A program made the position numbers and the translations under genes. A stretch of 64,000 nt of DNA from Rufibacter sp. XAAS-G3-1 (GTDB lineage: Bacteria; Bacteroidota; Bacteroidia; Cytophagales; Hymenobacteraceae). Shown piece after piece: positions 1,919 through 59,186 of the stretch. How positions within the stretch are numbered: position 1 is the stretch's first letter; the number at the start of each line of letters is the position of its first letter. The notes under the pieces are model-generated. The model made no database searches. It was given only the letters and a program-made list of their open reading frames with translations, and was not told the DNA's origin. The stretch is taken from positions 186,001-250,000 of the forward strand of contig NZ_JABFAM010000004.1 of assembly GCF_013623775.1 (NCBI RefSeq), read 5' to 3'.

Positions 1919-1956
1919 CGTTTAGGGCCTGTTTTCTGTAAAACAGGCCCTAAACG
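1919..1956. repeat. P38 palindromic repeat, perfect copy
   Basis: 38-bp palindrome starting 8 bases after the biotin carrier stop. The two 17-bp arms (CGTTTAGGGCCTGTTTT and its complement) match perfectly around CTGT. It could act as a transcription terminator or a 3'-end stabilising hairpin. Confidence 0.9.
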
Positions 1957-1997
1957 CGTATAGCCAAATGTCACTAACTATTACTATCTAAATAAGC

Positions 1998-2705
1998 ATG
2001 CGATTCAAAAGAATTCTATTGAAGCTCAGCGGAGAGTCCCTTATGGGCGAACAGCAGTATGGGATTGATACCAAGATGCTGGTGCAATACGCCCAGGAAA
2101 TCAAATCTGCCGTTGACATGGGGGCCGAGGTGGCCGTGGTCATTGGCGGCGGCAACATTTTCAGGGGCGTGCAGGCCGAGGCGGTAGGATTAGACCGTGT
2201 GCAGGGTGACTACATGGGCATGCTGGCCACCGTCATCAACAGCATGGCCTTGCAGAGCGCGCTGGAAAAAGTGGGCGTGTTCACCCGGCTTTTGTCCGGC
2301 ATCAACATCCAACAAGTATGCGAGCCGTATATCCGCCGGAGGGCGATGCGCCACCTGGAAAAAGGCCGCGTGGTCATCTTCGGGGCCGGTACCGGTAACC
2401 CGTATTTCACCACCGATTCTGCCGCCAGTTTACGTGCCATTGAGATTGAGGCCGATGTGGTGCTAAAAGGAACCCGCGTGGACGGCATCTATACCGCCGA
2501 CCCGGAGAAAGACCCCTCCGCCACCCGCTACACTGACATTACCTTTGAAGAAGTGTTTGAAAAAGGCCTGAACGTGATGGACATGACCGCCTTTACCCTC
2601 TGCAAAGAAAACAACTTACCCATTGTAGTGTTTGACATTAACAAGCGCGGCAACCTGGCCAGGCTAATTGACGGCGAGCGAGTAGGAACCCTGGTTTCTA
2701 TGTAA
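1998..2705 (+). CDS. pyrH: UMP kinase
   Basis: Phosphorylates UMP to UDP in pyrimidine nucleotide synthesis; a cytoplasmic hexamer of the amino acid kinase fold. The 235-residue length is normal for bacterial PyrH. Visible signatures are the N-terminal [11 protein letters not shown], the glycine-rich [11 protein letters not shown], and near the end [11 protein letters not shown] and [11 protein letters not shown]. The next gene is frr, and pyrH-frr is a very common bacterial pairing that supports both calls. The gap to frr is about 115 bp, and the pair is probably co-transcribed. Confidence 0.97.
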
Positions 2706-2821
2706 TTTAAAAGTGTCTGCTGCCCACAGTGGATTTTACGGAATAAAATCAGAAATTTGTGCCGCCTTTGGCTTTTGCTACGGCCGTACCATGTAGTCAT
2801 CTTTCTAAATCAGAAATCCCA

Positions 2822-3385
2822 ATGACCGAAGAAATTAATTTTTATTTGAGCGAAGCCGAGGAATCTATGCAGAAATCGGTGCAGCACACGAGTGTAGAAT
2901 TGACCAAAATCAGAGCCGGCAAAGCCTCACCGTCTATGGTAGAAGACCTGCGCGTAGACTACTACGGCACGCCTACTCCCATCTCGCAGGTAGCCAACGT
3001 CATGACCCCAGACGCCCGCACGCTTATGATCAAGCCCTGGGAGAAAAACATGGTAGCCGAAATTGGCAAAGCGATCAAAAACAGCGACCTGGGCCTGAAC
3101 CCCATGGTGGAAGCCGACGGAATCCGGTTGAACATTCCGGCCCTCACCGAAGAGCGCCGCCGGGATCTGGTGAAACAAGCCAAAAACGAAACCGAGAGCG
3201 GCAAAATCAGAGTGCGCAACATCCGCAAAGACGTAAATGACTCTTTGCGGAAACTGCAAAAGGAAGGTACTTCTGAAGACGCGGTGAAAGATGCCGAGGC
3301 CAAAGTGCAGAAACTGACAGATGCCTACATTGTAAAGCTGGACGAGCTTCTCTCCAAGAAAGAGGCCGAAATCATGACCATCTAA
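2822..3385 (+). CDS. frr: Ribosome recycling factor
   Basis: Splits post-termination ribosomes together with EF-G. I place the start at ATG 2822 (MTEEINFYL). This gives 187 residues, matching the family length of about 185; an earlier in-frame start at 2759 would add 21 unlikely residues. RRF signatures seen are TKIRAGKASPSM, DYYGTPTPISQVANV, IRLNIPALTEERR and the C-terminal helix with VRNIRKDVND. It lies downstream of pyrH and is followed by a strong hairpin. Confidence 0.96.
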   Translation: MTEEINFYLSEAEESMQKSVQHTSVELTKIRAGKASPSMVEDLRVDYYGTPTPISQVANVMTPDARTLMIKPWEKNMVAEIGKAIKNSDLGLNPMVEADGIRLNIPALTEERRRDLVKQAKNETESGKIRVRNIRKDVNDSLRKLQKEGTSEDAVKDAEAKVQKLTDAYIVKLDELLSKKEAEIMTI

Positions 3386-3392
3386 AAAACAT

Positions 3393-3430
3393 CGTTTTCT
3401 GCCTGGTTTTAGGAAAACAGCATATAAACA
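3393..3430. repeat. P38 palindromic repeat, degenerate copy
   Basis: Degenerate 38-bp copy starting 8 bases after the frr stop. It overlaps the left arm of the large terminator palindrome at 3419-3474. Confidence 0.6.
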
Positions 3431-3474
3431 GAAGGCCCCGCACTTGCAAGTGCGGGGCCTTCTGTTTATATGCT
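3419..3474. terminator. 56-bp perfect palindrome after frr
   Basis: Two 28-bp arms match exactly with no loop. The GC-rich core GGCCCCGCACTTG is flanked by AT-rich ends. It lies 33 bases after frr and probably terminates the pyrH-frr transcript. From 3475 to 3743 I see no gene or clear signal. Confidence 0.75.
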
Positions 3475-3743: not shown

Positions 3744-3837
3744 TTGTCATCCTCCTGGAAGGATCTCGGTGGCGAACGGCAATTGCGCCCCATCAAAGCT
3801 ATTCTAGTTTGCCCACGAGATCCTTCCAGGAGGACAA
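3744..3837. mobile_element. GGATCT-MITE copy 1
   Basis: About 94 bp with imperfect terminal inverted repeats of ~31 bp (left end TTGTCATCCTCCTGGAAGGA, right end complementary) around GGCGAACGGCAATTGCG. It has no coding capacity. Related copies lie at 5092-5179, 9194-9332, 33034-33124 and 39742-39830. Confidence 0.7.
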
Positions 3838-4337: not shown

Positions 4338-5091
4338 TGCCTCAAGAAAGTCCCTCTGTTGTGTCTGTCTGAAAAGATGGCAAATTACGTTTCAAACCCC
4401 ATCTTACCAAGCTTTTGCACAGTAATTATTGGATTATTCAAATAAAATCACTGTCCAAACTACTTATAAACGCATTCACTTGTAAAAGGTTATTACTATT
4501 TGCTGAAAGTGCCTTAAATACCAATATTTCAATAGACTTTAACAAAAACACCTTCCCAAGACCGAATCTCTTCCCCCTGAACAAAGGTTGATCCATAGGC
4601 CATAGAGCAAGAAAATATTTTCCCTTGAAAGGCAAACTCCAATGAAAAAAATAAGTTAGCGCGTTGTGGCGCAGTAGAACTAAGGAGCTGACGTTCCGCA
4701 AAACTGCCGGTGGTTCCCGCCGAGTCTGGAGCCTCGCTTCATCCCATGGCACGAGGCTTCAGTCTCGCGCCAGTTGGTTCTAAACCTGTGAAGGTCTTGA
4801 AGACCTCACAGGTTTCCGTATTTCAGGCCTGTTTTCCGCGGTGCCGCCCGCTCCAATTGACCTCGTAGTGCGCGCAGCTCCTACGAGCGTCTGCGCCAAG
4901 GCCGTTTTGGGCCTATTTTCCGCAAAACAGCCTCTAAACGCATCAGCGGGGCCCCCCTCTTCGCGGGAGAGGGACTGCTCAGTGGTGGGGGGATTTCTGT
5001 TTTCAGCCTTGCTTCTGAAAAACAGGCTGAAAACAGAATCCGTGACCGGAAACGCGAGTAAGCATTGGACAGAAATAACCATCCCTTCTCC

Positions 5092-5179
5092 TTGTCCTCT
5101 GGAAGGATCTCGGTGACGAACGGCAATGGCGTTTATCTACCGCTTTTCCAGTTCACCCACAAGATCCCTTTAGGAAAAC
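5092..5179. mobile_element. GGATCT-MITE copy 2
   Basis: 88-bp copy with the left end TTGTCCTCTGGAAGGATCTC, the internal CGGCAATGGCGTTTAT shared with the copy at 33034-33124, and the complementary right end CAAGATCCCTTTAGG. It has no reading frame of its own. Confidence 0.65.
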
Positions 5180-5203
5180 AAAAGATCAATATCATTTATC
5201 CTG

Positions 5204-5269
5204 CTACTTTAAACGGGCGTTTTGGGCTCACTTTCGTAAAAGTGAGCCCAAAACGCCCGTTTAAAGTAG
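5204..5269. repeat. 66-bp perfect palindrome containing a P38
   Basis: Arms of 31 bp match exactly around CGTA. The inner 38 bp (5218-5255) are a P38 copy whose GGCCTG/CAGGCC is replaced by GGCTCAC/GTGAGCC. It lies 67 bp beyond the nadD stop and could terminate from either side. Confidence 0.85.
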
Positions 5270-5336
5270 CCTCCCTACAGAAGGTTAATTGATTACGGTT
5301 GTGTGTGACGTTCCTGCGGAAGGATGAAGCTATTCT

Positions 5337-5915
5337 TTACTGATAAAGCTTCTTGGCCTGGATATACTCTGCTACGGGCTCTGACAAGAGGTAGCGGGTA
5401 GATTTGCCTTCTTTGAGGCATTTCCGGATAAAGGTGGCAGAGATGTCCAGTAAAGGAGCCGGAACCACTGTTATCTTGGGGTGTTCTTTTACCGCATCAG
5501 GAATCTTGCCGCTTCCCGGCCTGGGGTACACCAACACCTCGTATTGCTCCAAAATCTGCTCATAGTTCTTCCACTTCGGCAAAGTGGCCAGGTTGTCTTC
5601 GCCCATAATGAGCACGAACTGGTAGGTAGGATATCTTCCTGTTAGATAGGTAAGCGTATCTATGGTGTAGCTGGGCTTGGGCATCCTGAACTCAATGTCG
5701 GTGACGCCCAGGTCTGCGTTATCGGCGATGGCCAGCCGTACCATGTGCAGGCGGTCAAACTCGTGCAGCAGGCTGCTGCTGGGCTTGAACGGGTTCTGCG
5801 GACTCACCACCAACCAGACCGTGTCCAGGGTAGTGTTGGCGGCCATGTAGTTCGCCAGGATCAGGTGCCCTACGTGGATGGGGTTAAAGGATCCAAACAA
5901 CAATCCTACCCGCAT
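5337..5915 (-). CDS. nadD: Nicotinate-nucleotide adenylyltransferase
   Basis: Adenylates nicotinate mononucleotide to deamido-NAD in NAD synthesis. It is a 192-residue cytoplasmic protein of usual length. The nucleotidyltransferase signature GSFNPIHVGH lies at residues ~8-17. The second motif is present as ISATFIRKCL near the C-terminus, a variant of the ISSTxIR motif. The start ATG at 5915 lies 2 bases after the gmk stop, so it is translated from the same transcript as gmk. This group also includes the upstream sigma/anti-sigma pair. Confidence 0.96.
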   Translation of the reverse strand: MRVGLLFGSFNPIHVGHLILANYMAANTTLDTVWLVVSPQNPFKPSSSLLHEFDRLHMVRLAIADNADLGVTDIEFRMPKPSYTIDTLTYLTGRYPTYQFVLIMGEDNLATLPKWKNYEQILEQYEVLVYPRPGSGKIPDAVKEHPKITVVPAPLLDISATFIRKCLKEGKSTRYLLSEPVAEYIQAKKLYQ

Positions 5916-5917
5916 GG

Positions 5918-6502
5918 CTACACGATTGGTTCTTCCGGATGGATGAAGTTCCGCACCAGTTTCTCTGCCTGGGCGAAGGCCTCCTCCAGATTCTCGTTCA
6001 CAATCACTTCATCAAACTGATCTTCAAAGCTCAGCTCAAACTTAGCCTTGAACACCCGGCTGGAAATGCTGGAGGCAGAGTCTGTGTTACGGGCCACCAA
6101 GCGCTTGGAAAGTTCTTCAATGGAAGGGGGCTTCACAAAGACGGCCAAGGCGCGGGCTCCGTAGAAATGCTTCACGCTCAAGCCGCCTTTCACATCTACA
6201 TCCAGAATAGCGTGTTTGCCTTCGGCCCAGATGCGTTCTATCTCAGATTTGAGGGTACCGTAAAAGGCGCCTTCGTATACTTCTTCCCACTCCACAAACT
6301 CCTCGTTCACGATTTTCTCACGGAACGCGTCTGGCGTGATGAAATAATAGTCTTTGCCGTTCACCTCAGAGCGCCCCCGGCGGTCGCGGGTGCAGGCTGA
6401 AATAGAGAAACTTAGCTCTGGGAGAACGTTTACTAAATGACGGACAATTGTTGTTTTACCGGCCCCGGAGGGGGCCGAAAAGATGATGATTTTACCTTGC
6501 AT
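5918..6502 (-). CDS. gmk: Guanylate kinase
   Basis: Converts GMP to GDP. It is 194 residues long, with the P-loop APSGAGKTT at residues ~10-18 and the guanylate kinase signature region [17 protein letters not shown], which binds GMP. VDVKGG and the lid region with [11 protein letters not shown] follow. It sits between the putative anti-sigma gene (21-bp gap) and nadD (2-bp gap), so it is very likely in one minus-strand operon. Confidence 0.97.
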
Positions 6503-7592: not shown

Positions 7593-9128
7593 ATGCCTCA
7601 ACCTATCTCAGTTACCATCCTCGCCAAAAACAGCCAGGAATTGCTGCCGCAATGCCTACGGGCGTTAGCCCAATTCCCGGAGGTGATTCTGCTGGACAAC
7701 GGCTCTACGGATGCCACCGTTTCCATCGCCAGTCAATTCCCCAACGTGAAGGTGTTCCACTCTCCGTTCATCGGGTTTGGGCCGCTCAAGAACCTGGCCG
7801 CCTCTTACGCCTCGCATGACTGGGTGCTTTCCATTGACAGCGATGAGGTCATCACGCCCCAATTAACCCAGACTATTCTAACCCACCCCTTAGATAACGC
7901 CAAAGCGTACCAGTTCTTGCGTCATAACTTTTACGGAAAACGGCTCATAAACGCCTGTGGTTGGGACAACGATTACGTGCTGCGGCTTTTTAACCGCAAA
8001 ACAACCCAATTCACCAACCGTGAGGTACACGAAGGGATTATGACCGATGCGGTTACGGTGGAAACCTTGCCCGGCCTCCTGAACCATTATTCCTTCAAGA
8101 ACGCCACAGAACTGCTGCAGAAACTCAACCAGTACACCACCCTCTTTGCCCAGGAAAACCGTTTCCAGAAAAAGTCCTCGGCCTTTAAGGCTACTTACAA
8201 AGCTGCCTGGACGTTTATCCGCAACTATTTCCTGAAACGGGGCTTTCTGTACGGGTTTGAGGGATTCCTCATTTCGGCCTGCAATGCGAACGGCGCTTTC
8301 TACAAGTACATGAAACTGCACGAGGCCAACCGTTCCATGACCACCAGCCTCATCATCTCCACCTACAATTGGCCCGAGGCTCTGGAAGTGGTTTTGAAAA
8401 GCGTAGCCCTGCAGCGTGAATTACCAGATGAGGTGATTATTGCCGATGACGGTTCCCGCGCTGAAACCAAAGCACTTATTGAGAAATTCCAGCAGAACTT
8501 TCCCGTCCCGCTTCGCCATTGCTGGCACGAAGACACCGGGTTTAGGCTGGCCGCTATCCGCAACAAAGCCATGGCCATGGCTACCGGCGAATACCTTCTC
8601 TCCATAGACGGCGACATGGTGCTGCACCCCGACTTTGTGCAGAGCCATAAACGCATGGCCCGGGCCAACACCTTCATCCAGGGCAAACGCGTGTTGCTGC
8701 AACCCCAGCTCACCCAGCAGATTCTGCAAACCAGACAGTGGCGCATTACGCCGTTCTCCTCGGGCATCATCAACCGTTTTAACGCTGTTTCCTCAGAAAC
8801 ACTGGCAAAACTCGGCTCCAAGAAACGGTCAGATATTAGAGCCATCAGGGGCTGCAACATGGCGTTCTGGCGCGCCGATGTGCTGCGCATCAACGGGTTC
8901 AACGAGAACATACAAGGTTGGGGCCGCGAGGACAGTGAATTCGCCATTAGAATGCTGAACGCCGGTATAGAGCGCCGCAACCTCCCCTTCGGAGGCGTGG
9001 GGTATCACCTGTACCACCCAGAAAACGCCCGCACCTCGCTCCCAGAGAACGACAAGATTCTAGCCGATGCCATTGAACAGAAAGCCAAATGGTGCGAGAA
9101 CGGCATCAGTAAGTATCTGCAGGTGTAG
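7593..9128 (+). CDS. Fused two-domain glycosyltransferase family 2 protein
   Basis: 511 residues with two GT2 (GT-A fold) catalytic domains in one chain. The N-terminal domain (~1-245) resembles WaaE/KdtX-type lipopolysaccharide core transferases: ISVTILAKN, LLDNGSTDAT, the DxD-like SIDSDEV, and NREVHEGI. The second domain (~250-511) restarts with TTSLIISTYNWPEAL and has ADDGSRAET, SIDGDMV and GWGREDSEFAIRM, as in separate Bacteroidota glycosyltransferases. The junction EANRSMTTSL looks like the end of one gene joined to the start of another. It probably acts in lipopolysaccharide or capsule synthesis. Start chosen at MPQPIS (7593). Confidence 0.88.
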   Translation: MPQPISVTILAKNSQELLPQCLRALAQFPEVILLDNGSTDATVSIASQFPNVKVFHSPFIGFGPLKNLAASYASHDWVLSIDSDEVITPQLTQTILTHPLDNAKAYQFLRHNFYGKRLINACGWDNDYVLRLFNRKTTQFTNREVHEGIMTDAVTVETLPGLLNHYSFKNATELLQKLNQYTTLFAQENRFQKKSSAFKATYKAAWTFIRNYFLKRGFLYGFEGFLISACNANGAFYKYMKLHEANRSMTTSLIISTYNWPEALEVVLKSVALQRELPDEVIIADDGSRAETKALIEKFQQNFPVPLRHCWHEDTGFRLAAIRNKAMAMATGEYLLSIDGDMVLHPDFVQSHKRMARANTFIQGKRVLLQPQLTQQILQTRQWRITPFSSGIINRFNAVSSETLAKLGSKKRSDIRAIRGCNMAFWRADVLRINGFNENIQGWGREDSEFAIRMLNAGIERRNLPFGGVGYHLYHPENARTSLPENDKILADAIEQKAKWCENGISKYLQV

Positions 9129-9193
9129 AGAGAAGCTCCTTCCTTAAACTTACTGCTTAAACATTACTGCATTTTCCAGAAGCTCCTCTCCTT

Positions 9194-9332
9194 CTTTGTC
9201 ATCTTGGAAAGATCTTGTGGGCAAACTAGAAAGGCCTCTTTGCCTTGAGAAGGCTTTTCCAAAAGAAAGCAGCATCAACAGGGAACAAGCGCTACTACCG
9301 TTCGCCCACAAGATCCTTTCAGGATGACAAAG
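9194..9332. mobile_element. GGATCT-MITE copy 3 (long version)
   Basis: About 139 bp. The terminal inverted repeats are CTTTGTCATCTTGGAAAGAT at the left and the complement of CTTTGTCATCCTGAAAGGAT at the right. The interior is longer than in the other copies and is inverted relative to copies 1, 2 and 4. Confidence 0.75.
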
Positions 9333-10892: not shown

Positions 10893-12080
10893 ATGCCTCT
10901 TCCGCTTTCCCCCGCTGAACGTGCCTTTGTTGCCGAACACCTGACCGCTGACCCGGCGCAACTTGTCTTGCAGGCTAAAAAGTGGCCCGCGTTGGACATT
11001 CCTAAACTAGCGCAACAGATACGAGCGCGACAAAAGGCGAAAAGCAAGATGCCCAGCTGGGTGGCTAACCTGGACTTGCTTTTCCCGGCGAACCTGTCGG
11101 TGGAGCAGAGTTCCTCTGAGGTGACGGCCACCTACAAAGCGAATCTGGTTTCGGGCGAGACGTTGGTGGATTTGACCGGGGGCTTCGGAATAGACTCTTT
11201 TGCTTTTTCAAGACGGTTCAGGCACGTTTCTTACGTGGAAAGACAACCGGAGCTGGCTTTGCTAGCCGGTTTCAACTTCACTCAGCTGGAGGCAAAAAAC
11301 ATTACGGTATACCCCACAGATGCCGAGGCTTTCCTAAGTACTTTGGAAGAGCCCGTTGATGTGCTTTTTCTAGATCCCGCCCGTCGCGGCCAAAGCCAGG
11401 AGCGGGTGCATCTGCTGCAGGACTGCGAACCGGACGTGCTGCGTCTGTTGCCGCTTCTTTTGCAGAAAAGCAAAGCCGTTTTGTTGAAAACCGCTCCCAT
11501 GTTGGACATCGACCTGGCGCTTCAGCAGTTGACCAACGTAGTGCAGGTGTGGGTGATCGCGGTGCAGAACGAATGCAAAGAGGTCTTGTATTTACTTAAA
11601 CCCGATGCCTTTGCTGCTCCTTTGATTACCGCCGTCAACCTGAAACCAGAACAACCCGAAGAACCCTTGACCTTCACCAAAGGCGCCGAAGAAAATGCCC
11701 GGGTTACTTTCTCTGAACCGCAGCGGTACCTATACGAACCCAACACGGCCTTGCTCAAAGCCGGCGCCTACAAATGGCTGTCAGAGGAATTTGGCGTAAA
11801 CAAACTGCATCGTAATAGCCATCTCTATACCTCCACTGAACTGCAAGCGGCGTTTCCGGGCCGTATTTTTGAAATCACGGCTCAACCGAAGGCCAACGCC
11901 AAAGAACTGTACCAACTTCTTCCCGCCAAAAAGGCCAACATCACCGTACGTAATTATCCGTTGACGGTGGCGCAATTACGGGAGAAAGTCAAATTGAAGG
12001 AAGGCGGAGACGATTACCTCTTTGCTACCACCGATTTGAACAACAAGCCTATTCTGCTGCTCTGCCGGAAGGTAGGTTAG
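10893..12080 (+). CDS. Class I SAM-dependent methyltransferase, PG_1098/THUMP-like family
   Basis: 395 residues from ATG 10893 (MPLPLSPAE); the frame is open upstream, but that part is repeat DNA. The Rossmann methyltransferase core has motif I DLTGGFGIDSF and DVLFLDPARRG, which is characteristic of the Bacteroidota PG_1098-type family. A C-terminal THUMP-like domain ends in NITVRNYPLTVAQLREK. The substrate is unknown; THUMP-like domains point to RNA. It is transcribed alone, with tandem GTTGTTAGTTGTCA repeats right after its stop. Confidence 0.82.
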   Translation: MPLPLSPAERAFVAEHLTADPAQLVLQAKKWPALDIPKLAQQIRARQKAKSKMPSWVANLDLLFPANLSVEQSSSEVTATYKANLVSGETLVDLTGGFGIDSFAFSRRFRHVSYVERQPELALLAGFNFTQLEAKNITVYPTDAEAFLSTLEEPVDVLFLDPARRGQSQERVHLLQDCEPDVLRLLPLLLQKSKAVLLKTAPMLDIDLALQQLTNVVQVWVIAVQNECKEVLYLLKPDAFAAPLITAVNLKPEQPEEPLTFTKGAEENARVTFSEPQRYLYEPNTALLKAGAYKWLSEEFGVNKLHRNSHLYTSTELQAAFPGRIFEITAQPKANAKELYQLLPAKKANITVRNYPLTVAQLREKVKLKEGGDDYLFATTDLNNKPILLLCRKVG

Positions 12081-12480
12081 TTGTTGGTTGTTAGTTGTCA
12101 GTTGTTAGTTGTTGGTTGTTAGTTGTCAGTTGTCAGTGTTCTCCCAAGTCGCGGGACTGTTGTTTCTAGCCTCACCGAAATAATATTGCTGTGCGTAGAG
12201 TTAGCGTAAGCGCTCTACGCACCAACGGGCAGCCAATCTCCTGATTGGCAAGTAATCGGCACAGACGCTACGAGGCTTTTTGAGCAACGCTATAGCGGCG
12301 GCTAGCAAAAACTCCCCTCCTAAAATAGGAGGGGTGCCCGAAGGGCGGGGTGGTAAAAAGCCGTAACCGGAGCAACAAGCACTGATTCTCAGCAATGCGT
12401 ACTGTCGCTGCGGGGCAGCGGGGGTAGTCTGGAGACTCGCGCCAGAGGGAATACTGACAACTGACAACTACCTGTGACAA
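12081..12480. repeat. Intergenic repeat region without genes
   Basis: 400 bp with no gene. It begins with short repeats of GTTAGTTGTCAGTTG type (12081-12135) and ends with the same words inverted (ACTGACAACTGACAACT, 12450-12470). Between them lie a hairpin GTGCGTAGAG...CTCTACGCAC (12192-12222), an AATAGGAGGGGTGCCCGAAGGG motif (12308-12355) and a GTCTGGAGACTCGCGCCAG block (12429-12446). This may be the decayed remains of an inverted-repeat element. Confidence 0.55.
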
Positions 12481-14400: not shown

Positions 14401-15040
14401 GTAGAAATAAAGGGAAGTGGTACTAACAAGCCAATGGCAAATACAGTGCTAAAAACCTGCGGCCCCGCAAAAAAGTTGCGCCCCCCAGCGGCGGCCTTTT
14501 TATAAGGGAATCTGTTTTGAGCCTGTTTCTGGTAAAACAACGCAGAAACGGACGAATTATGCGGGGCAGACCAGTTTTAAAAACATGCTTTGTTTCCACA
14601 TTAAAATAGTGTGGCCTTATTAAGATAGGGTGGCTTTCTCCTGTAGAAGGCTTTTACGCAAAGTAACTTGCTAGGAATTTCATCCTGCCGCCTACTCTAA
14701 AGACCTTGTCGTGTGCATAGTTCCTCTGAGAGTCTGCGCCGAGGCCGTTTCAAGTCCGTTTACTGAGAAACGGTTCTAAACCTGTGAGGTCTTGGAGACC
14801 TCACAGGTTTTCGCATTTAGCACCCGTTTACCCGCAAACAGGCCATAAACGCCAAGACGAAGGACTGCTGTGCGCACCCGCAGAAAAACCAGCCGAAGAA
14901 AGCAATGCGTGAGCGGCAAGGCAGTGCCTGGTCTCTATAGGAATCTGATTTCTGTTTACAGCCTGTTTCTGATAAAACGGCTTAGAAACGAGTTTTGGTA
15001 ATTTTTCCCATCATGCATAGCACGCTTTCCAAACTTCCCG
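14401..15040. repeat. Intergenic repeat island upstream of the B12 locus
   Basis: 640 bp without a gene. P38 copies at 14513-14550, 14746-14783, 14814-14851 and 14953-14990; a CTCACAGG hairpin at 14778-14810 fused to the second P38; and a CTB-like block at 14706-14745 (GTGTGCATAGTTCCTCTGAG). A GCCTGGTCTCTATAG motif lies at 14927-14941. Confidence 0.7.
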
Positions 15041-15048
15041 TACCTTTG
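15041..15048 (+). promoter_or_regulatory. -7 promoter box of the B12 uptake operon
   Basis: TACCTTTG, an exact TAnnTTTG match, a few bases before the start of the cobalamin riboswitch. Confidence 0.65.
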
Positions 15049-15055
15049 CCCTGAT

Positions 15056-15226
15056 TTTGGTGACAGCCTCGGCCTTCTGCCGAAGATGTCTTAAAAGGGA
15101 ATCAGGTGAAAAACCTGAGCTGTTCCCGCAACTGTTATCTTCCTTTACGTTCTGCCCACCGCAGGCCACTGTCTGTTTTACAGATGGGAAGGCCGGGCCG
15201 AAGAAGAGAGCCAGGAGACCTGCCAA
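15056..15226 (+). promoter_or_regulatory. Cobalamin (B12) riboswitch
   Basis: The leader has the conserved parts of the cobalamin class in the right order: AAAAGGGAATCAGGTG, then AACCTGAGCTGTTCCCGCAA with its P3-P6 core, the GCCACTG segment, GGGAAGGCCGGGCCG, and the B12 box AGCCAGGAGACCTGCC (15209-15224). It sits between a -7 box and a TonB-dependent receptor gene and should repress the operon when adenosyl- or methylcobalamin is plentiful. Boundaries are approximate. Confidence 0.93.
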
Positions 15227-15346
15227 CGTCAAACTTTCACCTGGAGGCTTTCGGGAAAAAAAGCAGCAAGGATGGTGGCCCCGCGTGGGCTGGCGTTTTC
15301 GTGTATTTCTTTCGTTGGGGTCTCCTCTGCTTTAAAAGCCGAGGGT

Positions 15347-17293
15347 ATGTTCCGTTGTCTGTTTCTGTTTGCGTGGGTTCTGGTCAGCACGGAGTTTCTG
15401 GCTCCGCCGGAAAGCTATGCCCAACTGCAAGACACAGTACAGTTGGCCCCCGTTACTGTATCGGGTCATCGCTACACCAAGTATGCCGCTGGAGCCCGAG
15501 TGCAGACGGTAGACTCCCTGCTCCTGCAACGCAGGCCCGGCATCACGCTAGCCGATGTGCTGCAGCAACGCAGCCCGCTGTACCTCAAAAGCTATGGCAA
15601 TGGCATGACCGCCACCGTGGCGTTCAGGGGTACTTCCTCCAGCCATACCGCCGTGCTTTGGAACGGGTTCAACATTGCGCTTCCTACCCTGGGTTTGTCA
15701 GACTTCGCGTTACTTCCCCCACCTATCAATACGCAGGTGAGCCTTCAGCACGGCCCCAGCGGTGCGTTGCACGGCAGCGGGGCGGTGGGAGGAGCTGTTC
15801 TGCTGGAAAACCCGGTTTCCTTTGCCCCTCAGCAACAGGTACAGGGGCAGCAGGAAATAGGCAGTTTCGGGCAACGCCGCACCGCCGCCGCGGGTTCTTT
15901 CTCCAACGGCCGTCTTGCCCTCACCTCCTCTTTCACCCGAACCTCAGCCGACAATGATTTCCGGTTTGAGAACACCACCGCCTTCGGGTCGCCGCGGGAA
16001 ACGCAGCAGAATGCCGCCTTTGACCAGACCAGCCTGGCGCAGGAAGTACATTATCAGCTAAGTCCGGCGCAGCGGCTCTCGGTGCGGGGCTGGTACGTGA
16101 AAACGCATCGGCAGATACAACCTTCCATGGGCAGCGCCAACACCCACGCCCAGCAGGACGATGAAAACCTGCGCCTCATGGGCGAATGGCAAGGCCAGTT
16201 GGCCGGAGGTACCACCACCGTGAGAGCCGCCTACTTCAAAGACCGCCTGGATTACCAGGATGACGGTTCGCTTTCCCTTTCTACCGTTAATACCTACCAA
16301 ACCCAGGTAGAACACGAGCGCACGTTGCTGCCGAATCTTCTGCTACAGGTTGGGGCTGAGGGTCAGTTATTCAAAGCCAATGTGGGCGGTTACGGCGGAA
16401 AAGTAGACGAACAGCGGTTCTCCACGTACGGCTGGCTGCGCTATGACCCGCTACCGAAACTTCAGCTAAGCCTGAACGTGCGGCAAGCCTGGGTACAGGG
16501 CTTTAATCCGCCGCTTACGCCTACGCTGGGCGCGAACGTCAGAATACTGGAACAGAACGGGAACACACTTACCGCGAAGGCGAATGTATCGCGCAGCTAC
16601 CGCGTGCCTACCCTAAACGACCGTTACTGGCGTCCGGGCGGGAATCAGGCCTTAAAACCCGAAAGCAGCTGGGGCTACGAAGGTGGTTTGGAGCATCAAT
16701 ATAAAAAGGGGCAATTCAGCGGCACTTCAGAACTCACGGTTTATGCCGTACAGGTAAAAGACTGGATTCAGTGGCAACCTTCTTCAACAGGAAATTACTC
16801 TGAACCCGTCAACCTACAACACGTGCGCGGCCACGGGGCCGAGATGGACAGCCGGTGGCAGATTGCTTTAGAGAGAGACTGGTCTTTCGCCGGAGGCTTG
16901 GCGTACGCTTATACCATCTCGCAGCAGAAATTACCAGATGCCCGAGCGCAGCTACAGGAACGGCAGTTGTTCTACGTACCCAAACACAAAGCCGCTCTTT
17001 GGGCCGAAGCCCGTTACCGTACCTGGTGGCTCACGGGAGATGCCACCTTCACCGGCCGCCGGTTCACCGATAATGACAACAACAACTGGCTGCCTGGCTA
17101 CGCGCTCGTGAATGCCAGTCTGGGCAAAACCTTCCGGTGGAACTCCTTCGAGACCCAGATTCTGGCGCAGGTGCAGAACCTTTCCAATACCGTGTACCAA
17201 ACCATGGCCTACCGCGCCATGCCGCCGCGCAACTTCCGCCTGGCGGTTTCTTTGACGTGGGCTAAACCTCAAAACACTTCCGCTCACCCTTAA
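15347..17293 (+). CDS. btuB: TonB-dependent receptor, BtuB-like (B12 uptake)
   Basis: 648-residue outer membrane receptor that should import cobalamins with TonB energy. I start at ATG 15347 (MFRCLFLFAW), which gives a signal peptide ending near ESYAQ; the earlier frame start at 15272 lies in riboswitch leader sequence. The plug domain is visible: PVTVSGHR as a TonB-box-like start, LADVLQQRSPLYLKSYG, TVAFRGTSSSHTAVLWNGF and GPSGALHGSGAVGGAV. The beta-barrel follows, ending in RNFRLAVSLTW. The riboswitch and the following BtuG-like genes give the B12 assignment. Confidence 0.92.
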   Translation: MFRCLFLFAWVLVSTEFLAPPESYAQLQDTVQLAPVTVSGHRYTKYAAGARVQTVDSLLLQRRPGITLADVLQQRSPLYLKSYGNGMTATVAFRGTSSSHTAVLWNGFNIALPTLGLSDFALLPPPINTQVSLQHGPSGALHGSGAVGGAVLLENPVSFAPQQQVQGQQEIGSFGQRRTAAAGSFSNGRLALTSSFTRTSADNDFRFENTTAFGSPRETQQNAAFDQTSLAQEVHYQLSPAQRLSVRGWYVKTHRQIQPSMGSANTHAQQDDENLRLMGEWQGQLAGGTTTVRAAYFKDRLDYQDDGSLSLSTVNTYQTQVEHERTLLPNLLLQVGAEGQLFKANVGGYGGKVDEQRFSTYGWLRYDPLPKLQLSLNVRQAWVQGFNPPLTPTLGANVRILEQNGNTLTAKANVSRSYRVPTLNDRYWRPGGNQALKPESSWGYEGGLEHQYKKGQFSGTSELTVYAVQVKDWIQWQPSSTGNYSEPVNLQHVRGHGAEMDSRWQIALERDWSFAGGLAYAYTISQQKLPDARAQLQERQLFYVPKHKAALWAEARYRTWWLTGDATFTGRRFTDNDNNNWLPGYALVNASLGKTFRWNSFETQILAQVQNLSNTVYQTMAYRAMPPRNFRLAVSLTWAKPQNTSAHP

Positions 17294-21781: not shown

Positions 21782-22096
21782 ATGGCCAAAGCAGTCAAAA
21801 GACATCCGTTCCAGCGGGACTGGCGCCGCGACCTGCTCATTGCCGCCCTCATCAGCATGCTGCTGGCCATGGCGCTGCTGCTCTACACGTTTGGGTTACC
21901 CCGTGATTTTATTTTCCGGCTGTTTAATGCCTTTTTTGGTATTTTTATTCTGATTACCGGAACCGCGTTTGTGATTGTGCCCTCCGTGAACTGGGTTTTC
22001 ATGCGGTTTTCTGGAAAACGACCCAAAAACGCCAAAGCAGTCCCCAAAGTAGCCGCCCCCAAACGCAACCTGCCAAAAAAGAGTCCTGAGTTCTGA
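21782..22096 (+). CDS. Small two-TM membrane protein with a repeat-derived tail
   Basis: 104 residues. A basic cytoplasmic start (AKAVKRHPFQRDWRRD) leads to two membrane helices (LLIAALISMLLAMALLLYTF and AFFGIFILITGTAFVIVP), then a basic Lys/Pro-rich tail. It starts 1 base after the stop of the thioredoxin-like gene. The tail from about residue 71 is encoded by a P38 copy (21994-22031), and the last residues by a GAGTCCTGAGTTCTGAG repeat. The original C-terminus may therefore have been extended or replaced by repeat DNA. Function unknown. Confidence 0.7.
   Translation: MAKAVKRHPFQRDWRRDLLIAALISMLLAMALLLYTFGLPRDFIFRLFNAFFGIFILITGTAFVIVPSVNWVFMRFSGKRPKNAKAVPKVAAPKRNLPKKSPEF
21994..22031. repeat. 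P38 palindromic repeat inside a coding region
   Basis: 38-bp copy (centre TTTTCTGGAAAAC) read in frame as VFMRFSGKRPKN in the tail of the small membrane protein. Confidence 0.65.
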
Positions 22097-33831: not shown

Positions 33832-33869
33832 TGTTTTAAGCCTCTTTTCCGAAAAACAGTCCCGAAACG
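33832..33869. repeat. P38 palindromic repeat
   Basis: 38-bp copy 27 bp after the secreted protein gene (centre TTTTCCGAAAAA). Confidence 0.75.
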
Positions 33870-39741: not shown

Positions 39742-39830
39742 TGTCCTCCTGAAAGGATCTTACTGGCGAACCAGAAAAGCGCTTACGAAGCGTATTTGCC
39801 GTTCGCAATCAAAATTCTTACAGGAGGACA
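39742..39830. mobile_element. GGATCT-MITE copy 5 (inverted)
   Basis: 89-bp copy. The left end TGTCCTCCTGAAAGGATCTT pairs with the right end AAAATTCTTACAGGAGGACA; the interior is inverted relative to copies 1, 2 and 4. Confidence 0.7.
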
Positions 39831-39945
39831 CTTTCTAAGCAGTAACCGTAAGTCACGGAATGTAAATCCGCACCATAGTGGGGAAGCACCAAAACCCACC
39901 CCCTTCCCTTCCGAGGAGGGTAATACGCCTATAAAGGAGAAAAAA

Positions 39946-43149: not shown

Positions 43150-43582
43150 GGAACAACGGCTTGGCTAATGATTCCAGAAAGCACTTCAACTGAAGTCTCC
43201 CTTCTTGGCTTCTCTTTTTTGAACGTTACTGCTTCTACGAAGATTTTGGGCTTGTTTCTGAAAAACGCCCATAAAATTCTTTTGAGGTGCGATGCGCGTG
43301 CTTCCCTTTCTCTGTTTTGCACCTGTTTTCCTGAAAACAGCCGTAAAACGCGACTCAGGCCGCGGTTAGCCCCACCAGGAAAACCGCAGGCAGAGACAGC
43401 CTGGGGCGCAGACACTCGCAGGAGATGCACCCGGGCTGTTTCCAGGCTGTTTTCCGTAAAACAGCCTGGAAACGCATCAGCGGGGCCTCCCTCTCGCCGG
43501 GAGAGGGGGTGAGGCTTTCTGCGTATCGGCAGTTCCTAAATCTACGGCAAAAACCCGGTTTCTCCCTCTTTCGCCTTTACGT
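43150..43582. repeat. Intergenic repeat island before the Ca-type ATPase gene
   Basis: P38 copies at 43241-43278 (weak), 43313-43350 and 43437-43474. The last is followed by CAGCGGGGCCTCCCTCTCGC and GGGAGAGGGGG, the same tail seen at 4941 and 26500. A GGCGCAGACACTCGCAGGAG fragment of CTB lies at 43405-43424. The promoter of the ATPase must lie in the right-hand part; I cannot place it. Confidence 0.7.
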
Positions 43583-48511: not shown

Positions 48512-48824
48512 AAGCGTTTATGGGCTGTTTCGCAGAAAGCAGGTTAAAAGCGACCGTTGGCAGAGACACTCGCCGGTCTTGCAGGCACTACGAGGTCTTT
48601 TGAGTAAGCGGTATTGCTGCATTAAACCTCACAGGTTTTGGAAACCTGTGAGGTTTTTATTTGAATAAGAGACAGAACCTACCCTAGATGAAGTTAAGTC
48701 TATTATCAGTTTAGATTTACCATTGTCTGTTACTCAAAAGACCTCGTAGTGTGCGTAGCTCCTACCAGTGTCTGCGCCAATGCCGTTTCCAGCCCATTTT
48801 CTGGAAAACAGGCCTAAAACAGGC
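48512..48824. repeat. Intergenic repeat island
   Basis: 313 bp without a gene: P38 (48515-48552), reversed CTB (48553-48600) with AGTAAGCGGTATTGCTGC, a CTCACAGG hairpin (48624-48656), forward CTB (48737-48783) and P38 (48784-48821), which ends 4 bp from the acetyltransferase stop. The two CTB-P38 units are inverted around the hairpin. Confidence 0.8.
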
Positions 48825-49358
48825 TTAAACCTCCCGCTGCAGGTACAAATCGCGCTGCACGTCTTCGCCTAAGACAAAGGTCAACTCACCCGCTTCTCTA
48901 AAGCCGTACTTCTGGTAGAACCGAATGGCGCGTTCGTTGCTTTCCCACACGGTAAGCCACACCACGTCATGGCCGTTTTGCTTCGCGCGTTCCAGGCTCA
49001 TTTTCATCAACGTATCTCCTAACCCGCGGCCTGTACAAGCTTGGAGCAAATACAAACGGCTAATCTGGAAAGGCTTTTGACCGGTAATTTCGGCGGGAGC
49101 CGGGCTGGTGTTCCATTTCACGTAAGCCACCGCTTCCCCTGCTGCTTCCACAATGAGGAACTCCGTGTGGCGGTCGGCTAACTCGGCGGCTTGCAGGGCT
49201 GGGGTGTACATGGTGGGCTTGAAAGCGGCCATGTCCTCGGGGGTATTATAGGCGGCGAACGTCTCGTCAAAGGTGCGCCAGCCTAAATCGGCGAGTAATG
49301 CAGCATCAGCGGGAGTTCCCCGGCGGAAGGTGAATGTATCAGTGGCGAAAGCGGGCAT
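48825..49358 (-). CDS. GNAT-family N-acetyltransferase
   Basis: 177 residues from ATG 49358 (MPAFATDTF). The GNAT fold is visible: FRRGTPADAALLADL at the start, then RLYLLQACTGRGLGDTLMKM, the acetyl-CoA loop (variant of RxxGxG/A), and WESNERAIRFYQKYGFREAG, the C-terminal motif B. The acceptor substrate is unknown. An in-frame start further up would run over the -7 box at 49374-49381. Confidence 0.9.
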   Translation of the reverse strand: MPAFATDTFTFRRGTPADAALLADLGWRTFDETFAAYNTPEDMAAFKPTMYTPALQAAELADRHTEFLIVEAAGEAVAYVKWNTSPAPAEITGQKPFQISRLYLLQACTGRGLGDTLMKMSLERAKQNGHDVVWLTVWESNERAIRFYQKYGFREAGELTFVLGEDVQRDLYLQREV

Positions 49359-53543: not shown

Positions 53544-53585
53544 TATGGGCTGTTTCCAGAGAAAGAGGCTGAAAATGGGGGACTA

Positions 53586-53616
53586 GACCTCACAGGTTTT
53601 GAAAACCTGTGAGGTC
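53586..53616 (+). terminator. CTCACAGG hairpin (HG) followed by T-run
   Basis: 15-bp arms GACCTCACAGGTTTT and complement around a single G, followed by TTTTTG; a copy of the HG block also present at 4792, 14778 and 48624. Confidence 0.75.
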
Positions 53617-53708
53617 TTTTTGTAGCTGTTGGCGGAGACACTCGTAGGAGCTGCCGATACCGTTTCTGAGCCGATTTCCAAATTTTGACTTTAAAACAGG
53701 CGCTTGCG

Positions 53709-55745: not shown

Positions 55746-55763
55746 AGCGGAAATAAATACGAT

Positions 55764-56550: not shown

Positions 56551-56640
56551 AATGGTAAACGAACAGGGTAAGAGGATGCCGAATAGAGAGACCGCTCCAC
56601 GCAGGCTTACCCCTATTCTCATTTGTAAAAAATAAGCTAT

Positions 56641-58239
56641 TTATTTAGTCAGGCGCCATCTGCCGCCTATACTCACGCCAAGTTGATAGGTATTCTCCTG
56701 GTGCTGTTCTTCCCGCAGTAGGGGCGAGAGTGAGTACGTGAACTCAGGGGCGACTAGAATGCTCATCTTGCTGGTCACGTGATAACCAACCCCAATAGAG
56801 GTAGTGGTGGCCCACTGCAACGTTCTGAAGGGAGAGTCTTTGTCATTGAGCCCGAACTTCACGGCCTGCACCTGGTTTGTCTCGGGCACAATGGCGTTCT
56901 GCACCAGAAAATTCATGTTCACTCCGCCGGAGAAAAGAGCGTACACCTTTCTCAGATCTAGACGGTACGCCAAGCGCAGCGGAAGGCCTATCTTCTGGTA
57001 CTTATACTTGGTGCTGTATTCGTTTGTCCTAACCACAGAGATAGCCTGCCCCGCAGCTTCGGCCACAAAGGCGTTGGCTACCAAGGGGGTACTCTTGCTA
57101 TATGCAAAGTTCACTGGTGCCCCTCCTGCCATGTAGCCATCATAAAACAGATAAGATTGCGTGGTAGTCGCTTCGTTCTGCGTGTACATGACCCCGCTTT
57201 CCAGTTGCCATTTATCGTTGATTTTATAACTGGCACCCACCGTGGCAGAATAGGAGTAAGCAGGCGCGTAACTGCTGTTGTATTCCTCTACCGCTTCCTG
57301 ATACTGCCGATACGCTTGTGGTGCCTGGCTCAGGGAGGCTCTTTCGTTCATGGCAGCATTGTTCCCTATTTTAACCGGCGCGTACGCGTACTGCGGGCTA
57401 TAGGCCATGGTCACACTCCACTTGCTCCCGTGAGCGGTTTCGCTTTCATGGCCTTTCTCAGTTGGCGGTGCCGGTGCCAGGGCTGGTTCGGCCTCTTTCT
57501 GCACCAGAATACTTCTTTTAGGTGCCGGCGGAAGAGAATCTAGCAGCGAGGGCAAACTTTGGGAGGCAGCCAAGCTATTGGCCAAGGACCCGGGAAAAGG
57601 TTTCGCCTCTATGTTCCCTGGAAAAACAGATTGACTTTCTACTGCCTCTCCGCCCGTCACTTTCTTTTCTTCCAACTTGGCAAGCGCAGCGGTGGATTCT
57701 GTATGGGAAGCCCCGGCCATGGGGTTTTGCTGCGCGATGCGTGCCTCCGGAGTTTCTTCATTCTGCGCCAAGTGCTGGTTTCTGGCCCTTGAAGAAGTAA
57801 TTTTCTGGTTTCTGTTTTCAGGCTGGTTTTCTGAAAACACCCTTGAAACGGCAGCGAGCGGGTCAGGTGCTTTCTCTTTGAACGGCTCTTTTTCCACAGA
57901 AGACGCTGCCGCAGGTTCTTTGGCCGCCAAACCGCCGGGCGCAGTTCTGCTGGTGGTCTCTTGCCGCGTAGCGAATCCGGTTTCCGGCGGCCCCACCAAA
58001 GCAGAATCCTGCCGCCACAGAATGATCCCCGCAGAAACCAACAGGAACAGGAAAGCCGCCGCCATAGAACGGTACCATTTCACTTGTCTGCGGTAACGGT
58101 GCAGTTCATGGTTTTCCAGTTCCAGGTTTACGTTCTCCCAGACACGGGGAGACGGGGTGCTCTCAGCCTCAGCAAAGCCATTCCGGAAGACATCTTCCAC
58201 AGACTGGCCTTGCTTTTTCTCAGCCGGTGACTTTTTCAT
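56641..58239 (-). CDS. TM-anchored protein with a C-terminal beta-barrel domain, sigma-linked
   Basis: 532 residues. A ~55-residue cytoplasmic part (with SPRVWENVNLELENHE, as in anti-sigma-like Bacteroidota proteins) is followed by a membrane helix (AAAFLFLLVSAGIILW). A long, low-complexity Ala/Pro/Glu-rich linker follows (to ~265). The C-terminal ~250 residues look like an outer-membrane beta-barrel (SVTMAYSPQYAYAPV, YSATVGASYKINDKWQLESG, YQLGVSIGGRWRLTK). Its first 20 bases overlap the upstream sigma gene. An anti-sigma role is inferred. A P38 copy lies in frame at 57813-57850. Confidence 0.8.
   Translation of the reverse strand: MKKSPAEKKQGQSVEDVFRNGFAEAESTPSPRVWENVNLELENHELHRYRRQVKWYRSMAAAFLFLLVSAGIILWRQDSALVGPPETGFATRQETTSRTAPGGLAAKEPAAASSVEKEPFKEKAPDPLAAVSRVFSENQPENRNQKITSSRARNQHLAQNEETPEARIAQQNPMAGASHTESTAALAKLEEKKVTGGEAVESQSVFPGNIEAKPFPGSLANSLAASQSLPSLLDSLPPAPKRSILVQKEAEPALAPAPPTEKGHESETAHGSKWSVTMAYSPQYAYAPVKIGNNAAMNERASLSQAPQAYRQYQEAVEEYNSSYAPAYSYSATVGASYKINDKWQLESGVMYTQNEATTTQSYLFYDGYMAGGAPVNFAYSKSTPLVANAFVAEAAGQAISVVRTNEYSTKYKYQKIGLPLRLAYRLDLRKVYALFSGGVNMNFLVQNAIVPETNQVQAVKFGLNDKDSPFRTLQWATTTSIGVGYHVTSKMSILVAPEFTYSLSPLLREEQHQENTYQLGVSIGGRWRLTK
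57813..57850. repeat. P38 palindromic repeat inside a coding region
   Basis: 38-bp copy (centre TTTTCTGAAAAC) inside the disordered linker of the TM-barrel protein. On the coding strand it is read as VSRVFSENQPEN. Confidence 0.8.
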
Positions 58240-58798
58240 GGTTCTGCTGTTTTAGCCGCAGCAACGCCTGCCGTAAGCTGGCGCGGGCGCGGGAATATTG
58301 TGATTTGGAGGTACTCTCGGTTATTTCCAGCATCTCGCCTATTTCTTTGTGGGAGAAGCCCTCAATGGCATACAAGTTGAAAACGGCCTGGTAGCGGGGC
58401 GGTAGCCCTCGAACCAGCTCCAGCAGTTCCTCATAGGCAAACTGGCTGTCCAGGTTATCCTGCTCAGAGACATCGTCTAACTCTTCGTCCTGGCCGGTGA
58501 CCATGAGGTGCCGGTTGGTGCGTTGGTACTTCAGGGCCGTATTGATGACAATGCGTTTCACCCAGAACTCCAGCGGACAGTCTCCTTTGAAGTTCTTCAG
58601 GTACAGGAACACCTTCACGAAAGAGTCCTGCAGAATATCCTCGGCCTCAAAATCCGTACGGGCATAGCGTTTACTCACGGCCAGCATCTTGCCTGCGTAC
58701 TGTTGGTACAGCAGTTGCTGGGCGTCCCGCTTCCCGTCAACAGCCCTTTTGACCAGGTCTGCCTCAGTGGGATTTTTAGGTTTCAGAATCTTCAACAA
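58220..58798 (-). CDS. ECF-type RNA polymerase sigma factor
   Basis: 192 residues. Sigma-70 region 2 (LLYQQYAGKMLAVSKRYA, TDFEAEDILQDSFVKVF, LEFWVKRIVINTALKYQR) and region 4 (LPPRYQAVFNLYAIEGFSHKE, EIGEMLEITESTSKSQYSRA). Its end overlaps the start of the TM-barrel gene by 20 bases, so the two are coupled. This sigma / membrane-protein pairing is frequent in Bacteroidota envelope-stress loci. Confidence 0.93.
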   Translation of the reverse strand: MLKILKPKNPTEADLVKRAVDGKRDAQQLLYQQYAGKMLAVSKRYARTDFEAEDILQDSFVKVFLYLKNFKGDCPLEFWVKRIVINTALKYQRTNRHLMVTGQDEELDDVSEQDNLDSQFAYEELLELVRGLPPRYQAVFNLYAIEGFSHKEIGEMLEITESTSKSQYSRARASLRQALLRLKQQNHEKVTG

Positions 58799-59186
58799 TG
58801 GGCCACTTGTATTATTTTCTACCGGTAAGAGCCTTGCCGTGCCACAAAGGTTGCATCGCCTTCCCCTAAGATGATAAAATTCTTTTCACCAACTTAGGCG
58901 CAGAAGAAAGATACCTGGAAAATCATCTGGATACTAGAAAGGAGGAGCCCTGTTTTAGGGCTGAAATTTGAAAAACAGGGGCAAAACAGAGAACTTGTTT
59001 CGTACTTGGAAAGTCCTTTCCTTGGCTTGTCCCCTGACAAGCCAACGTATATAAAGGGCAGGCTGAGACGCTTTTCTTCCGTCCTGTCTGGCAATAGGCC
59101 GGGGAAGCGGGAGTAAATACGGGAATAAATAGAGGAGTAGCCTTTTGATTTAAGGCTGAATTTCAGAAAACACGCCTAAAACGCGA
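58799..59186. repeat. Intergenic region with two P38 copies
   Basis: 388 bp, no gene. P38 copies at 58951-58988 and 59146-59183; the latter ends 4 bp from the aroE stop. Between them I see only AT/GC-mixed DNA with an ACTTTCC...GGGGACAAG tract and nothing recognisable. The promoter of the sigma gene should lie at 58800-58940. Confidence 0.6.

Follow-up and report, generated by a model that had tools for sequence, protein, structure and literature searches.

Recognition sites of bacterial chromosome organisers, such as parS and the Noc site, are dyad-symmetric with GTTT/AAAC-type half-sites, and uptake signal sequences (USS) carry phased AT tracts. DNA uptake sequences (DUS; PMC3630211) form dialects, favor permissive regions and occur as terminator-associated inverted pairs. 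Repetitive extragenic palindromic (REP) sequences and REP doublets forming hairpins (REPINs) are defined (PMC3686654, PMC3733652) by a 5' tetranucleotide tag of GTAG or GTGG (or CGTC) and a cognate REP-associated tyrosine transposase (RAYT). Here we describe P38, a palindromic repeat dispersed across 64,000 nucleotides of Rufibacter sp. XAAS-G3-1 (RefSeq assembly GCF_013623775.1, contig NZ_JABFAM010000004.1, positions 186,001 to 250,000), a stretch that we call the window. A first-pass annotation of the window had taken P38 for an actively spread, REP-like element serving transcription termination, mRNA 3' protection or nucleoid binding. We find that P38 is confined to one genus, Rufibacter, and that its bases are constrained in place, irrespective of arm pairing and strand. 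Our best reading is that it is mainly neither an RNA element nor a mobile element; the explanation we lean toward, tentatively, is a DNA-level recognition site of a Rufibacter-restricted chromosome-organising protein, kept in place by selection.

P38 resembles each of the described systems in part. Like parS and Noc sites it is a dyad of GTTT/AAAC-type half-sites present in genes and gaps alike, but it is far more numerous, is 38 bp long with four half-sites, belongs to one genus, and its protein is putative. With DUS (PMC3630211) and USS it shares a high copy number, lineage dialects, occurrence in both genes and gaps, a terminator-like hairpin subset and permissive places; unlike them it is a 38-bp, dyad-symmetric motif, about 90% intergenic, in a genus without a type IV pilin signature. 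With REP/REPIN-RAYT systems it has in common a short palindrome, high copy number and siting at gene ends, but P38 lacks a consistent GTAG or CGTC tag and an excess of RAYT flanking, its places are largely fixed across species, and some copies lie in genes, one of them differing from sister genera by substitution only.

The dispersed family itself is real. Among the 40 starts listed at first pass, 39 lie within 6 bp of a profile match of at least 15 bits and 38 within 1 bp; the start at 4992 was corrected to 4998, and that at 25955 had no qualifying match. Six further sites from the profile scan (603, 8775, 11851, 31994, 55828 and the weak 34867) bring the window to 45, against a chance expectation of 0 to 1 per 64 kb. 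A symmetric profile trained on the window found 49 sites of at least 10 bits, whereas 10 order-1 Markov shuffles averaged 0.3; at 15 bits or more it found 253 sites in a separate 400 kb of the same genome, none in one shuffle of 100 kb of that genome, and 1 in 400 kb from five sister genera. The constant length also held, since 35 chosen copies gave 38 gap-free alignment columns. In this genome (G000; other genomes are likewise given by handle) the consensus is cGTTTTngGgCTGTTTTccggAAAACAGcCcnAAAACg, a dyad of four phased half-sites with GTTTT at positions 2-6 and 13-17 and AAAAC at 22-26 and 33-37, spaced 11 bp apart within each arm. The sites of the window follow, with profile scores in bits and no strand assigned to P38 itself.

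603-640: within predicted gene 3-1187(-), peptidase M1; 19.4 bits
1919-1956: 8 nt past the stop of 1416-1910(+); 46.6 bits
3393-3430: 7 nt past a stop; 37.3 bits
4903-4940: intergenic, part of the longer composite repeat D6; 47.5 bits
4998-5035: listed at first pass as 4992; 35.6 bits
5218-5255: near-perfect palindrome, outer stem score 15, locus-specific hairpin, compensated orthologs; 31.7 bits
8775-8812: within glycosyltransferase gene 7593-9128(+); 25.0 bits
9380-9417: 5 nt past the stop of a (-) gene; 44.3 bits
10805-10842: divergent gap; 34.7 bits
11851-11888: within gene 11049-12080(+), THUMP-like domain; 23.0 bits
14513-14550: intergenic; 39.4 bits
14746-14783: weaker site, intergenic; 21.1 bits
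14814-14851: weaker site, intergenic; 23.8 bits
14953-14990: intergenic; 36.2 bits
18379-18416: 2 nt past a stop; 39.6 bits
19612-19649: 2 nt past a stop; 41.4 bits
21008-21045: 28 nt past a stop, one arm locus-specific between species; 42.7 bits
21994-22031: within predicted ORF 21782-22096(+); 34.1 bits
26247-26284: part of a composite repeat; 43.9 bits
26462-26499: intergenic; 45.1 bits
28428-28465: weaker site; 20.5 bits
28519-28556: top scorer of the window; 50.6 bits
29628-29665: 13 nt past a stop; 30.3 bits
30100-30137: intergenic; 33.3 bits
31994-32031: within P-type ATPase gene 30401-32656(+); 25.9 bits, 24.8 in the G012 and G014 orthologs
33832-33869: 26 nt past a stop; 45.6 bits
34867-34904: weak, doubtful P38-like site within gene 34057-35661(-), absent in the G012 ortholog; 15.9 bits
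35641-35678: overlaps a gene edge; 25.8 bits
35769-35806: intergenic; 48.6 bits
35922-35959: part of an inverted composite repeat; 47.2 bits
40414-40451: intergenic; 43.0 bits
43241-43278: weaker site; 22.1 bits
43313-43350: intergenic; 45.1 bits
43437-43474: part of a composite repeat; 46.0 bits
44917-44954: intergenic; 31.0 bits
46200-46237: divergent gap; 44.1 bits
48515-48552: 3 nt past the stop of a (+) gene; 35.0 bits
48784-48821: 3 nt past the stop of a (-) gene; 46.3 bits
49435-49472: divergent gap; 32.1 bits
53540-53577: convergent gap; 37.9 bits
53661-53698: weaker site, 10 nt past the stop of a (-) gene; 21.0 bits
55828-55865: intergenic; 31.6 bits
57813-57850: within outer-membrane beta-barrel gene 56641-58239(-); 43.8 bits
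58951-58988: intergenic; 32.0 bits
59146-59183: 3 nt past the stop of a (-) gene; 37.7 bits

Searched with profiles through the genome and related Hymenobacteraceae, P38 was in large excess over random expectation in Rufibacter and at chance level in sister genera; the profiles were refined genome by genome, and score thresholds therefore vary between genomes. A half-pattern allowing up to 3 mismatches gave 39 to 2,755 matches in each of 16 of 16 Rufibacter genomes and 0 to 3 in 134 genomes of five sister genera (any in 23), similar to a reversed control, in counts that sum both strands, so that a good palindrome can score twice. A dialect-free core pattern marked 186 to 1,442 places per genome in Rufibacter (14 of 14 genomes), compared with 0 to 3 in each of 46 sister-genus genomes (any in 6). 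Division of the core-pattern count by its sensitivity on sampled copies (0.12 to 0.76 in nine genomes) puts the family roughly at 1,500 to 3,000 copies per Rufibacter genome, for example 607/0.38 or about 1,600 in G013, and the sampled density was 0.33 to 0.75 per kb in each of 16 genomes (20 to 400 kb per genome). An exact 32-letter pattern, run on a collection with one genome per species, matched three species, all Rufibacter, in a strict scan that misses weak dialects and whose collection perhaps does not hold the window's own record. No analogous dyad stood out in 10 sister-genus genomes (40 kb each), and 109 genomes of the order outside the family had 0 to 2 matches each, except G252 with 7. 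The literature search, with most subscription journals beyond its reach, returned no publication that we recognised as describing the family.

The matches in G252, a genome of another family in the same order (72% complete), were rejected as P38, as they mostly belong to a different palindrome. At L210 and L213 this genome carries a 27-28 bp palindrome, CGTTTTRGGCAAAATTTGCCYAAAACG, whose outer arms are common with P38, and at L212 there is a single P38-like site of 38.9 bits.

The places that P38 occupies are largely fixed. In a 220-kb comparison of G002 and G007, both orthologous gaps held P38 in 59 cases, one in 1 case and neither in 48; the lone discordant gap looks like a later-called gene start, and with both gaps at least 80 bp long the counts were 53, 0 and 33. 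Twelve further genome comparisons, reaching down to 75% protein identity, gave odds ratios from 14 to infinite (Fisher p 0.028 to 1.5e-5). Discordant gaps do occur, as between G000 and G014, with 7 gaps occupied in both, 5 discordant and 8 in neither. Even the distance from the gene end is kept: in 74 of 115 occupied orthologous gaps it agreed with that in G000 to within 10 bp, against 0.18 for random placement, and the gap that holds the site at 1919, listed for 8 genomes, has P38 4-9 nt past the orthologous stop in each of them.

Within these places the letters themselves are constrained. A G007 counterpart could be aligned for 72 of 76 G002 copies, where a simulation of neutral decay at the fourfold-site rate (0.275), using a single rate and equal base choice, would leave 14.6 (range 6 to 25). 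Over the 70 of these 72 pairs that were used, the substitution rate drops with information content (rho -0.86), from 0.30 at weak positions to 0.083 at strong ones, and the constraint tracks the GTTT...AAAC core. First alignments had made P38 appear hypervariable beyond the neutral rate, an idea rejected because the weak positions evolve at about the fourfold rate. Single changes between the two genomes broke an arm pair 132 times and created one 133 times, so the core letters are kept more than the hairpin is; where both partners of a G002 pair had changed (22 cases), pairing was retained in 7.

Species also differ in how they spell P38. The consensus is CGTTTTcGGgCTCATTTCcgGAAATGAGcCCgAAAACG in G014, CGTTTaGgGgCTgTTTTTnnAAAAAcAGcCcCtAAACG in G003 and CGTTTTTGGCCTGTTTTCtaGAAAACAGGCCAAAAACG in G009 and G013; that of G014 carries CTCATTTC...GAAATGAG in both arms, and the information content ranges from 27.4 bits (G015) up to 51.3 bits (G009). 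Between G014 and G000, orthologous sites agree at 23.7 of 38 letters and non-orthologous sites at 24.1 (24.3 and 24.4 for G012, 26.1 and 24.4 for G006, with 4 to 11 orthologous sites in each comparison), and copies inside G014 agree at 27.7. The close pair G002 and G007 retains a memory of place, at 29.9 for orthologous versus 22.2 for non-orthologous sites. Saturation of weak positions may explain the loss of this memory elsewhere; a shifted species consensus needs a directional cause.

Genes were called by an in-house script (codon log-odds, greedy), and counts of gaps carry some error as a result. In-gene sites made up 65 of 683 over seven samples, which leaves about 90% intergenic, with a higher share in G002 (22 of 111). 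The siting after stop codons reported at first pass stands as an enrichment, but not for every copy, as 7 of the window's 45 lie in genes. Among 630 gap elements from 8 genomes, 67 lay 0-5 nt and 58 lay 5-10 nt past a stop, against 22.9 expected in either bin, and 38 fell within 40 bp ahead of a start, where 104.6 were expected. Among gaps of at least 38 bp in 400 kb of G000, P38 occupied 38 of 44 between convergent genes, 89 of 149 between tandem genes and 17 of 44 between divergent genes. The preferred CNGN centre noted earlier exists, but it is not oriented by transcription (97 copies sense, 99 antisense). Spacing is evener than random placement within gaps would make it, with a coefficient of variation of 1.03 against 1.34 +- 0.09 in G000 and, more weakly, 1.06 against 1.25 +- 0.13 in G002 and 1.05 against 1.23 +- 0.12 in G007.

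Coding DNA of G000 (327 kb) held 26 sites of at least 15 bits, where profiles with permuted columns gave 0.1; in 307 kb of coding DNA from sister genera there was 1. From G002 to G007, 17 of 22 in-gene copies were kept, a raw figure uncorrected for coding constraint; the in-gene sites of the window were kept in orthologs at 3 of 7 (G015), 6 of 7 (G012), 5 of 7 (G002), 2 of 6 (G003), 3 of 6 (G014), 4 of 6 (G006) and 3 of 6 (G009). The site at 57813-57850, ahead of the barrel domain, falls on identical codons, with the reading frame unchanged, in 10 of 10 genomes (26.2 to 56.0 bits), in host proteins as little as 37% identical; the G014 ortholog bears G014's own dialect, and the G015 ortholog is an open frame with the site in phase. 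At 8775 the score is 25.0 bits in G000, 25.3 in G012, 22.1 in G002 and 14.2 in G007, and below 0 at the same position in G015, G006, G009 and three sister-genus orthologs. Alignment with the sister-genus orthologs, which lack the motif, shows no gap at this stretch, and the site therefore came, or went, by substitution rather than insertion.

Enrichment 0-10 nt past stops is what one would look for if P38 acted in the transcript, as a hairpin at the 3' end that terminates transcription or protects the mRNA, and a minority of copies have the corresponding structure. In 66 of 1,131 copies (about 6%) the palindrome extends into a locus-unique outer stem with P38 forming the apex, compared with 1.7 such stems for shuffled partners. 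A T-run lies beyond the stem in 23 of the 66, against 108 of 927 copies without a stem when either strand is allowed, and the inner palindrome is better in outer-stem copies (15.45 versus 11.97 of 18). These copies look like terminators or long hairpins with a P38 apex, the 5218 site and its compensated orthologs included. Insertion of P38 into terminator loops is unlikely for this class, because in 32 of 33 cases outer stems scoring at least 8 abut P38 exactly (offset 0,0) and leave no loop residue. Arm covariation is detectable at positions 1 and 6-8 in G000 and at 7 and 10 in G011, and in G014 a separate terminator accompanied 15 of 42 gene ends that have P38, compared with 1 of 27 that lack it. 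Most copies behave otherwise. The compensating arm change seen at 5218 is real but not general, the copies of the window show little pairing excess, and the covariation within genomes goes with pairing that is mostly unkept between orthologs; six other samples had separate terminators about as often with P38 as without (25 of 131 versus 13 of 83 in G000). Given also the lack of strand polarity, an RNA hairpin was rejected as the general function. Termination is supported for the outer-stem minority, but not for the bulk; mRNA 3' protection accounts neither for in-gene copies nor for the missing strand bias. That P38 as a whole works in RNA is, on balance, improbable.

The REP-like interpretation given at first pass holds in that P38 is an extragenic, high-copy palindrome tied to gene ends, resembling REPs in form and length, but not in making active spread the main process. 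Were P38 a non-autonomous mobile element spread by a RAYT or another nuclease, its older copies persisting through inertia or use, one might point to G011, where 250 of 261 near-identical pairs share neither adjacent flank (before de-duplication) and, once duplicates are removed, 17 of 161 copies are matched exactly by another, against 0.0. Near-identical pairs mostly lack shared flanks in G014, G009 and G013 too, as they do in G011; in G000, 5 of 9 share one or both. Y1_Tnp matches occur in 15 of 16 Rufibacter genomes, near-consensus P38 copies stand on both sides of the G009 Y1 locus L155 (dropped from the flanking test), and GTAG is somewhat above permuted tetramers in G011 (15 of 161 versus 9.1) and G009 (12 of 96 versus 6.8). 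Against this, GTAG is not raised in G000 (near an end in 25 of 287 versus 25.5) and is below permuted tetramers in G014, G013 and G002, and CGTC, the other tag examined, is below expectation in all six genomes (12 versus 43.4 in G000). Searched at E 0.001, G013, a genome in one contig, yields no Y1_Tnp match, and Y1 gene counts do not track P38 hit numbers. The flanking test used 11 of 18 Y1 loci, the others lacking a called full-length gene or being IS200-like (L160): P38 stood on both sides of 3 and on one side of 4, compared with 9 and 20 of 37 control genes. A link to RAYTs was rejected on these grounds, and the earlier remark that the window holds no RAYT agrees with the genome's only Y1_Tnp match lying on another contig (no window-only search was made). 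The largely shared places, the gap-free substitutions at 8775 and the retention of 72 of 76 copies also speak against spread as the main process, as does the better-scoring half of copies, which in 7 of 11 sampled genomes (duplicates removed) had no near-identity excess (G002, G007, G015, G012, G009, G013 and G006). The gap alignments inspected contained no exact 38-bp insertion or clean empty site. We regard a mobile element as an unlikely explanation.

RAYT-like Y1 proteins of about 182 aa are found in most Rufibacter genomes (L151-L169), seemingly in several subfamilies and without preferential P38 flanking.

A closer rival is a self-recognition watermark under molecular drive, of the kind that DUS represent in Neisseriaceae and Pasteurellaceae. 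DNA in the current dialect would be preferentially taken up or recombined, sites would accumulate in permissive places, genes included, and species would drift apart. P38 is indeed a highly iterated motif with lineage dialects, and those dialects at shared places, the substitution-only in-gene site, the permissive coding stretches, the fairly even spacing and the terminator-like hairpin subset all suit such a mark. Less suitable are its length, far greater than that of DUS, its predominance between genes, and in-gene sites that show no general preference for their own dialect. The type IV pilin signature (Pfam N_methyl, PF07963, at E 0.001) was found in 0 of 16 genomes of the genus versus 8 of 14 controls, in a search confined to this one uptake signature; uptake is therefore less likely, and we think this rival rather doubtful. 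Framed more broadly, P38 could be an independently evolved genome-wide watermark of some two thousand sites per genome, respelled in place by each species, at least once within a gene, whether the agent is a drive that homogenises the sites through preferential uptake, recombination or repair, or a co-evolving new nucleoid protein; so combined, this is possible, though less likely than not.

Taken together, constraint, fixed place, dialects, strand symmetry and in-gene sites fit a DNA recognition site that is kept, and nucleoid binding would be the nearest to it of the functions proposed at first pass. The 11-bp phasing of the half-sites would be compatible with a DNA-binding protein that tracks the helix and acts as a dimer or tetramer. 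A putative nucleoid or topology protein restricted to Rufibacter, whose existence, nature and role we infer, would bind P38, often once per intergenic region, with a preference for positions just past gene ends and away from start regions. Selection would hold each site in place, and if the specificity of the protein drifted in one lineage the sites would follow, producing species dialects.

Several observations weigh against the recognition-site explanation. If point selection were the sole agent, a very large number of substitutions would be required to shift a dialect across many sites. In coding DNA a genome's own profile had no advantage, with 10 sites in G014 by its own profile, 11 by that of G000 and 12 by that of G002, and 4 in G009 by its own profile and by that of G000, so the case for respelling inside genes depends on individual examples. 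Near-identical copies in the better-scoring half exceed expectation from independent columns in G000, G011, G014 and G003, also when arm pairs are kept together (z = 7.0, 2.6, 6.0 and 6.0), and with all copies included the excess extends to 8 of 11 genomes, adding G006, G013, G009 and, weakly, G012. Some copying or subfamily structure exists in the first four genomes, and some copying may therefore have taken place. New gap places can arrive with larger inserted segments, as in G014. The 35-copy alignment had a covariation score of 0.217 versus 0.177, above all 500 shuffles, and near-perfect palindromes are in excess in G000 (24 of 287 versus 0.8 expected); part of this excess, and of the arm covariation by position within G000 and G011, belongs to the outer-stem class.

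P38 shares the window with other repeats and elements. Composite intergenic repeats (D6, I1-I3) that hold P38 with other small palindromes lie at 4859-4954, 26203-26298, 43393-43488 and 48740-48835, and an inverted composite repeat with P38 lies near 35921-36033. Another repeat, about 88 bp long and bounded by inverted ends of the TCCTCCTG...CAGGAGGACAA type, is dispersed in both orientations at 3750-3837, 5094-5181, 9190-9331, 33037-33124 and 39744-39831, some copies being partial. Three related copies of a 36-bp palindrome, TAAACCTCACAGGTTTTGGAAACCTGTGAGGTTTTT (D14), are found at 14777-14812, 48623-48658 and 53584-53619, and GTTAGTT-type heptamers form a tandem array at a gene end (12076-12137). 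The Rfam scan of the window returned only two matches. One is a cobalamin riboswitch at 15041-15241, which precedes the gene at about 15272-17293; the other, to Thr_leader at 3348-3466, is marginal (56.2 bits, cut-off 55), overlaps the P38 site at 3393 and is possibly a chance hairpin match. Elsewhere in the genus, stretches of the R. ruber contig L013 (about 4583-6214) belong to a large dispersed repeat family, with dozens of further occurrences in that genome at about 70-93% identity.

Repeats of this type are usually filed as REPs and read as transposase products. For P38, sequence comparison alone reveals many sites fixed by constraint on DNA letters, whole species that shift their spelling, and a signal retained in a fast-changing gene linker. 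If the watermark reading is true, dialect-forming genomic marks would exist in Bacteroidota beside those of Neisseriaceae and Pasteurellaceae, on different machinery. Rufibacter makes it possible to test whether a host function or molecular drive maintains highly iterated motifs, and finding the factor that recognises P38 would uncover either a new protein that organises bacterial chromosomes or a new system of self-recognition.

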